From assembly GCF_000423345.1 (NCBI RefSeq), contig NZ_KE384008.1, forward strand, positions 252,857-316,856: a DNA stretch of 64,000 bases, written 5' to 3'. The notes beneath the pieces were generated by a model. That model had not been told where the DNA came from. It saw nothing but the letters and a program-made list of their open reading frames with translations, and made no database searches. Made by a program: the position numbers and the translations under genes. Source of the DNA: Marinimicrobium agarilyticum DSM 16975. Its GTDB lineage: Bacteria > Pseudomonadota > Gammaproteobacteria > Pseudomonadales > Cellvibrionaceae. Positions 3,046 through 57,237 of this stretch are shown piece after piece (positions within the stretch are counted from its first letter, which is position 1; each line of letters starts with the position of its first letter).

Positions 3046-3367
3046 AGATTGCCTCAATATGCAATAGGCGCGCGGCAGCCGGGTAGGGCAGCGGGAAGAT
3101 GGGCGCGGTGGTGTTGGGGTGTTGTCGGGTGAACAGGGGGTGCGATCTCGGCGGTTCCGGGGCCTTATCGCGGCACGTTTTGGGCGGTTCGCATGTTGCG
3201 TTCGCCTGGGCTGGGTGTCAGCCGGACAAGTCCATGTCGGTTTCAGTGCTGCCCTGTAACACCATTTCCCCAAACGCATAGAGGGCTTTACTGAAGAGGC
3301 GCGGAGTATAGGCGGATTTTTAGTCAGTTGCCAGTACTATTTCTTGGGCCTATGGTGTTCTTAGCCC

Positions 3368-3479
3368 GGTTCGGAAGTCGGTGCATTGTCCCAAGACCCG
3401 CCGTGAACCCATCCATGGGGGCTTCTCATCGGCATCCATGCCTCAGAGAGTCTTGGGACAATGCACCGACTTCCGGACC
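3368..3479 (+). repeat. long-hairpin repeat E2 (30-bp arms, 52-nt core)
   Basis: Arms 3368-3397 and 3450-3479 pair over 30 bp with one mismatch (T3371/G3476); the inner 26 bp are perfect. The core 3398-3449 begins CCGCCGTGAACCCATCCATG and includes the small stem-loop GGCATCCATGCC. It is the same core as E1 in opposite orientation, with different arms. Its right flank leads within 20 nt into REP-like unit C. Confidence 0.92.
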
Positions 3480-3498
3480 TCCCTTATCAACAGTATCC

Positions 3499-34779: not shown

Positions 34780-34809
34780 ACTTTTAGTTGGGCAGCGGCC
34801 GTAGCGTCC

Positions 34810-34922
34810 GGTCCGTGGAGGGCGTATACCCTTTCAAGACACGCCGTGAATACGTCCCTGTAGGCTCGAATCGCGTGTCCCGCGCTCCACGGTCTTGAAA
34901 GGGTATACGCCCTCCACGGACC
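34810..34922 (+). repeat. long-hairpin repeat E3 (31-bp arms, 51-nt core)
   Basis: Arms 34810-34840 and 34892-34922 are perfect 31-bp reverse complements (outer GGTCCGTGGAGG, inner TTTCAAGAC). Core 34841-34891 begins ACGCCGTGAATACGTCCCTG and carries a small stem GCGTG-TCC-CGCGC. Right flank CTCAGTGCCACA is shared with other copies. Confidence 0.93.
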
Positions 34923-34983
34923 TCAGTGCCACACATTGGGTACGTTGGGTGGACTAAAGCTTACCAGCTTCAGTTGGCACGGA

Positions 34984-35096
34984 GGCTCGGGAGGAGCAGG
35001 AGGGTTTGCAAGACCGTGGAGCGGGGGACCCGCGATTCGAGCCCCCAGGGATGGGTTTACGGCGTGTCTTGCAAACCCTCCTGCTCCTCCCGAGCC
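34984..35096 (-). repeat. long-hairpin repeat E4 (31-bp arms, 51-nt core)
   Basis: Arms 34984-35014 and 35066-35096 are perfect 31-bp reverse complements (outer GGCTCGGGAGG, inner TTGCAAGAC). The minus-strand core begins ACGCCGTAAACCCATCCCTG and has the small stem GCGGG-TCC-CCCGC. The core differs from E3 at a handful of positions; the arms differ mostly in the middle. Confidence 0.93.
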
Positions 35097-35189
35097 GGAC
35101 TACAACAAAGAACCAAAGCAGAAGATGGCGGTGTAGCTTACAAACACCACGATTTATAGACACACAAAATTATTCTGGAGAACAACGTT

Positions 35190-56776: not shown

Positions 56777-56804
56777 TTCTGCTTGCTTCGTAGGGGAGTG
56801 CTAC

Positions 56805-56904
56805 GGGAGGGTATCCCCCTCAGAGACACGCCGTAAACCCATCCATGGGGGCTCGATTACCTGCCGTCCAGGCAGGTAACGGTCTCTGAGGGGGATGCCC
56901 TCCC
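56805..56904 (+). repeat. long-hairpin repeat E5 (23-bp arms, 54-nt core)
   Basis: Arms 56805-56827 and 56882-56904 pair over 23 bp with one mismatch. Core 56828-56881 begins ACGCCGTAAACCCATCCATG and contains an inner 9-bp stem TTACCTGCC/GGCAGGTAA around GTCCA-type loop bases. Right flank has CTCCGCGCTGCCAACTGA. Confidence 0.92.
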
Positions 56905-57100
56905 TCCGCGCTGCCAACTGATGATCAGGCGGAGGTAAGACAGTAAACCCTTTAAAAGCGCGTCAAATGAGCCGTTTGCTGGTAGACGCAGGTATCGCAA
57001 AGGTCGCCTCAATTTGGCGAACAATCTTTGGGTGTTTCTGCTTAAAACTGGGGTACTTTTAGGCGCTATCTCTGGCCAGCTTTCAGTTGGCATCTGCGAA

Positions 57101-57200
57101 GGGAGTGTAGGTCTGTCCGGGACCGTTACCCGCCTGGACGGCGGGTAATCGAGCCCCCATGGATGGGTTTACGGCGTGTCCCGGACAGACCTACACTCCC
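57101..57200 (-). repeat. long-hairpin repeat E6 (23-bp arms, 54-nt core)
   Basis: Arms 57101-57123 and 57178-57200 are perfect 23-bp reverse complements. The minus-strand core is identical to that of E5 except for two bases that form one base pair of the inner stem (T-A in E5, C-G in E6). The arm middle is unrelated to E5. Confidence 0.93.
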
Positions 57201-57237
57201 GTAGCACTCCAATGCGAAGCTCAGGAGCAAAGAGGGC

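Follow-up and report, generated by a model that had tools for sequence, protein, structure and literature searches.

E5 and E6, two neighboring hairpin elements in the window (the whole stretch of 64,000 nucleotides of Marinimicrobium agarilyticum DNA that was analyzed), represent two copies, inverted relative to each other, of a palindromic repeat found in intergenic regions throughout the genome. We lean slightly toward the view that the repeat is a mobile-looking palindrome and that the strand where its hairpin loops read GGA contains a dual CsrA/RsmA-type site; transcription of the copies, their binding by CsrA and a regulatory effect are inferred. This would give an abundant intergenic repeat a candidate function, a predicted CsrA/RsmA site, together with a strand on which to exert it.

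R1, a covariance model that was constructed from 43 copies and gives rough E-values, identified at least 144 copies in the 4.5-Mb genome and at least 61 in each of two other genomes of the genus; 30 of 58 relatives had matches, as did 36 of 229 genomes across the class. When 129 kb were scanned without bias for long hairpins, 20 of the 24 found were this repeat. The unit is about 150 nt long, and the 54-nt core of E5 and E6 forms the tip of an outer stem of approximately 29 bp. Rfam models at their gathering scores detected only tRNAs in the whole window, and no report on the core sequence was found in the literature. The core consensus was absent from plasmid records and occurred in phages at chance level only. 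Matches of E5, E6 and other copies to miRNA families were discounted as nonspecific, of the sort that a long palindrome gives. The copies in the window and their parts are as follows.

56795-56919, + strand: E5, whole element, in the TCC ("top") orientation, the - strand being the GGA strand (R1 82.6 bits; also in the hairpin scan)
56799-56827, + strand: E5 outer stem, left arm, hypervariable, pairing with 56882-56910
56882-56910, + strand: E5 outer stem, right arm, pairing with the left arm
56828-56881, + strand: E5 54-nt core
56838-56849, - strand: E5 hairpin A, CCC-AUGGAU-GGG on the - strand, with an AYGGAY-like loop; CsrA-like CAUGGAUG
56857-56879, - strand: E5 hairpin B (the inner stem of the earlier note), loop UGGAC on the - strand, covarying pair T56862/A56874
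57086-57210, - strand: E6, whole element, inverted partner of E5, the + strand being the GGA strand (R1 85.1 bits)
57124-57177, - strand: E6 54-nt core
57156-57167, + strand: E6 hairpin A, GGA of the + strand at 57161-57163
57126-57148, + strand: E6 hairpin B, GGA of the + strand at 57136-57138, changed pair 57131/57143
57178-57206, - strand: E6 outer-stem arm beside the core start
57095-57123, - strand: E6 outer-stem arm beside the core end
34807-34930, + strand: E3, a further copy, with the TAC/GTA form of hairpin A (R1 126.7 bits)
34976-35099, - strand: E4, inverted partner of E3 (R1 128.7 bits)
3365-3487, + strand: copy of the CCGCCGT subtype, hairpin B reading GGCATGGATGCC on the GGA strand (R1 78.7 bits)
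1060-1182, - strand: copy of the CCGCCGT subtype (R1 70.7 bits)

Covariation in the core and in the outer stem

The earlier note had proposed that the E5 and E6 cores differ only by a compensatory change. The two 54-nt cores are indeed identical except at core positions 35 and 47, T56862/A56874 in E5 and C/G at 57143/57131 in E6, and these positions pair with each other in the inner stem TTACC[T/C]GCC-GTCCA-GGC[A/G]GGTAA. An inner stem of this type is present in 26 copies from three related genomes, which represent 12 distinct hairpins. At four of the nine pairs of this stem, both partners have changed together (T-A/C-G, A-T/G-C/T-A, C-G/G-C and T-A/C-G), the only half-way state at these pairs is a single C.A, and the loop contains TCC in all 26 copies. 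Hairpin A covaries as well, CCC/GGG being replaced by TAC/GTA in 7 of 43 copies. In the structure of the 43 main-type copies, which have a 51-nt core, we counted 340 cells with double changes, far above the 89.5 +/- 8.2 obtained with shuffled controls, which leave phylogeny in, and the 51 to 67 obtained with slid controls. A larger alignment, in which the earlier note saw a possible refutation, supports the covariation and places its main signal in the outer stem. There, nearly every pair varies, many of them through all four Watson-Crick combinations, and 97% of the pairs of the repeat are Watson-Crick (228 elements). The covariation of the 54-nt core is small beside that of this flanking stem of about 29 bp, which the earlier note omits.

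Two further points of that note need qualification. The T-G to G-C difference between E3 and E4 does involve a pair that changes, but it is a weak example: among the 43 copies the position is G-C in 31, A-U in 4, U-G in 3 and unpaired in 5, and on what appears to be the relevant strand (see below) the T.G becomes an A.C mismatch. Similarly, the TCC of the loop is kept, but the outside words ACGCCGTRAAC and GGCTCGA are constant only within their own subtype and not in sister subtypes (e.g., CCGCCGTGAA...GGCTTCTC).

The folded strand and its GGA hairpins

If mutation were strand-symmetric, A.C and G.T mismatches should be equally frequent in the stem. Among the 228 elements, however, there were 65 A.C/C.A mismatches as compared with 8 G.T/T.G, and the bias persisted (30 A.C against 6 G.T, p=7e-5) when related copies were counted once and the outer pairs were dropped; C.C and G.G mismatches, corrected in the same way, numbered 4 and 0, which is too few to weigh. 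Because an A.C on the strand read in the earlier note is a G.T or G.U wobble on the complement, the target of selection, or of a process specific to one strand, is the complement. The working strand thus seems to be the complement, where the loop reads GGA. The proposal that the loop is the likely protein contact is plausible, since the loop is the fixed part of the hairpin, but it has to be transferred to this other strand. More generally, the bias between G.T and A.C mismatches in a variable stem can reveal the working strand of a palindromic repeat.

The core of the GGA strand reads GACCG...CCUGGACGG...CCCCAUGGAUGGG...CGGCGUGUC. As RNA, it is predicted to fold into a stem, a three-way junction and two hairpins, each with GGA in its loop, with z scores of -7.2 for E5 and -10.1 for E6. 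Wobbles make up about 1% of the pairs even on this strand, which is low for an RNA stem. Of 195 distinct cores, 185 contain two or more GGA-loop hairpins on the GGA strand and 15 do so on the opposite strand; among mononucleotide-shuffled cores the proportion is 19%. The CsrA/RsmA consensus is A/UCANGGANGU/A, and the TAC/GTA form of hairpin A, UACANGGAYGUA, fits it by sequence; CA(N)GGANG is present in 82 of the 151 distinct GGA hairpins. The motif has also been given as A(N)GGA (PMC4066749). Hairpin B departs from CANGGANG, with a UGGAC loop in E5 and E6 and a GGA triloop in the main subtype. The gene for CsrA (PF02599) is present in the genome itself and in 56 of the 58 relatives, all carriers of the repeat included. 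The PrrB_RsmZ model (RF00166) gave no match in 19 relatives, a weak control in that no control genome scored above the cut-off either. In several copies, modules of about 51 to 71 nt reside within hairpin A and extend the core to 102-123 nt (L012, L031, L035, L047, L183, L185 and L186); they add CsrA-like hairpins, some of them on the opposite strand (GCCACAGGGATGTGGC, CGGCAGGATGGCCG, GGCATGGATGCC).

One could envision the following mode of action for a dual CsrA/RsmA-type site. On its GGA strand, each copy would form a long stem, its sequence particular to the locus, that ends in a three-way junction bearing two short GGA-loop hairpins. When the transcript of a neighboring gene reads through a copy in the GGA sense, that copy would bind one CsrA/RsmA dimer, one hairpin per subunit. 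The sequence of the stem would be free to change provided that it remained paired, and the loop would be held fixed as the protein contact; selection on the fold would thus explain why the loop letters are constant while the short stems change. The copies might in this way titrate CsrA or control the stability of mRNAs locally, and if CsrA does bind, amplification of the repeat would have altered Csr/Rsm titration in these bacteria.

Several findings count against a dual CsrA site. E5 and E6 lack a match to the TwoAYGGAY model (RF01731; see below), hairpin B is off-motif, wobbles are rare, orientation with respect to genes is random, and neither a conserved promoter nor a conserved terminator was seen. 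In addition, the favored predicted structure of a transcript covering both E5 and E6 is a long E5:E6 duplex (-273 kcal/mol, z -16.9), in which the cores pair with each other and the loops are hidden. It is conceivable, judging from these predicted folds, that the pair could switch between the local hairpins and the long duplex.

Arrangement, turnover and alternative explanations

Neighboring copies within 500 bp of each other are arranged head-to-head (+-) in 42 of 44 cases, and a second set, from three genomes, contained 53 head-to-head (+-) units and no -+ unit. Gene positions were taken from a simple codon-usage script, which is adequate for this purpose but is not a curated annotation. Pairs are commoner between tandem genes than between convergent genes, and we therefore reject the idea that head-to-head pairing is a by-product of convergent genes, most pairs lying between tandem ones. 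Divergent intergenic regions are depleted of the repeat (8 units in 89 regions, versus 110 in 313 elsewhere; Fisher p=3.6e-7), and the orientation of single copies between tandem genes is random (23 versus 28, p=0.58). Because the pairs are head-to-head, a transcript entering from either side would carry exactly one GGA-sense copy, as far as the geometry tells. In a relative (G032, L103 1534-2636), several hairpin copies lie in direct tandem with a period of about 200 nt; elsewhere the arrangement is head-to-head. Other palindromic families (GCGTAGGGTRGGTAAGCG...CCACCTACC; CGGCGGATGCGCTTCGCTTATCCGCCCTACG) lie within the pairs or close to them, for example at G000:C4:418423-418576 and in L228, L232 and L233, and they are very abundant in one genome of the same genus (G002).

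The covariation, which the earlier note took as the signature of selection on a folded nucleic acid, is real, but that is not its sole reading. Paralogous arms that differ at one pair showed 9 double changes versus 1 single change, and those that differ at two pairs showed 25 versus 9; in the outer stem of paralogs, double transversions (115) exceeded transitions (92). Had the changes passed through wobble intermediates, single changes should be more numerous and transitions preferred; the pattern fits recopying of arms in an extruded hairpin. Such hairpin-templated copying is a serious rival to selection on RNA. According to this explanation, which we regard as possible but doubtful, the repeat is a mobile palindrome of the MITE, BIME or YPAL kind that acts as DNA and needs no RNA function; its arms are recopied by template switching or hairpin-primed synthesis, and the strand bias arises from a transposase or recombinase that handles only the bottom strand. 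The scarcity of wobbles on either strand and the random orientation to genes agree with it, as does the turnover of the repeat. Copies present in one close relative are absent from another, and near-empty sites exist; seven of these were inspected for clean target-site duplications, and none was seen. At the site of E5 and E6, one relative has a pair with different arms and cores and another has only a decayed hairpin. Among 16 pairs of orthologs with nearly constant arms (at most 4 differences in 52 arm positions), 8 had cores at least four edits apart, and several of these core swaps amount to gain or loss of a module of about 51 nt in hairpin A.

Against a purely DNA-level palindrome, close orthologs (median flank identity 92%) also contain one-sided changes, 28 single and 35 double, which indicates that single changes persist for a while. 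Nor does arm copying explain why GGA/TCC is constant in two loops whose short stems covary, or why the repeat matches TwoAYGGAY, and a mobilizing enzyme was not found; several copy-rich genomes are without a match to Y1_Tnp. Selection on the fold and recopying of the arms may possibly both act.

A different proposal is that the long hairpins end transcripts or block 3′ exonucleases, that is, that the repeat is a transcription terminator or a 3′ stabilizer of mRNA. E5 starts 19 nt past amtB and E6 28 nt past a gene resembling rRNA methyltransferases, so that both directly follow gene stops; the repeat is commoner between convergent and tandem genes, and its folds are very stable. We nevertheless think this role improbable, given that it leaves the invariant loops and the strand bias unexplained and that some copies lie in divergent regions. 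An intrinsic terminator in particular was rejected, because no T-run follows the stems of E5 and E6 and both orientations of the repeat occur behind genes.

The high copy number, the inverted doublets described above, the intergenic location and the palindromic sequence would also suit a REP/REPIN element mobilized by a RAYT (Y1) transposase. The unit of about 150 nt, however, far exceeds the length of a REP. The sole Y1_Tnp match in the genome is a broken transposase fragment (L051 5828-6013; G000:C8:178833-179096), and the copy-rich genomes G002, G007, G009, G015 and G026 have no match, which led us to reject this explanation as very improbable. The genome also contains two reverse transcriptases (RVT_1; L052 and L053) with open frames of 316 and 438 aa. 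Finally, two copies alone prove little, and the E5/E6 difference could in principle be a coincidence between related copies, but the 340 double-change cells (89.5 when shuffled, at most 67 when slid) and the independent paired changes in 12 distinct inner stems leave practically no room for chance or shared ancestry.

Comparison with known RNA families and repeats

In its general form, the repeat resembles BIMEs and REPINs, which are likewise inverted palindromic doublets in intergenic DNA; it differs from them in having no RAYT, a larger unit and a conserved three-way-junction tip. YPAL/RU-2 of Yersinia is an intergenic, mobile element of about 168 bp with internal inverted repeats that has been reported to be co-expressed with upstream genes (PMC2229807, PMC2847712). 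As an intergenic mobile palindrome, our repeat is similar to it as far as the published description goes, but the few empty sites that were inspected are without target-site duplications. The GGA-loop hairpins, which would bind CsrA/RsmA dimers, recall the titrating small RNAs of the CsrB/RsmZ type. Those are single RNAs with many sites, whereas the repeat consists of dispersed two-site elements on long stems.

The closest likeness is to TwoAYGGAY RNA, a motif described from human gut, gamma-Proteobacteria and Clostridiales (Weinberg et al. 2010; PMC2864571) and proposed in 2014 to bind CsrA, its external stem being poorly conserved (Gardner & Eldai; PMC4333381). Copies from the same genus, which are sequences of this repeat, exceed the curated cut-off of RF01731 (43 bits) with 47.2 (G001) and 45.7 bits (G002). 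The matches in the genome itself coincide with R1 copies, on the strand opposite to R1, and the best of them reaches 41.5 bits (E 0.0029 in 60 kb); none was found in 14 control genomes. E5 and E6 had no match at E<=10 and, being below the detection of RF01731, are divergent relatives rather than formal members of TwoAYGGAY. Hairpin A of E5 and E6 has the loop AUGGAU, in agreement with AYGGAY, and hairpin B has UGGAC. Both the motif and the repeat have, on the same strand, an external stem that is poorly conserved in sequence and bears two GGA-loop hairpins at its end. The repeat is distinguished by its copy number (at least 144 per genome), its head-to-head pairs and its hypervariable, near-perfect stems; the passages on TwoAYGGAY in PMC2864571 do not describe it as a high-copy repeat. 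A genome of the same family (G006) has 12 TwoAYGGAY matches and no R1 match, and appears to hold a similar repeat from a more remote branch.

The consensus of Ysr224 (RF02770, Yersinia sRNA 224) holds the same core on the TCC strand, ACGCCGUAAAUACAUCCAUGUAGGCUCGA followed by a second hairpin with a UCC loop, and is annotated on the strand opposite to TwoAYGGAY. The cut-off of 70 bits was not reached, E6 scoring 28.9 and the best relative 39 bits. Matches to Ysr224 on enterobacterial plasmids also lie in long locus-specific palindromes, one of which has a head-to-head partner. The latter lies on an Enterobacter chuandaensis plasmid (L266, 375-720), and with it the paired arrangement reaches Enterobacterales. 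A bolder and rather unlikely extension of the dual-site reading would make the repeat a distributed CsrA sponge on a mobile palindrome, with hundreds of dual sites, pairs that act as RNA switches exposing or hiding GGA, and arms kept perfect by copying from the hairpin template; a single pan-gammaproteobacterial family would then include Ysr224, TwoAYGGAY and probably YPAL as its strands or branches. The repeat links two Rfam families that have been catalogued separately and annotated on opposite strands.
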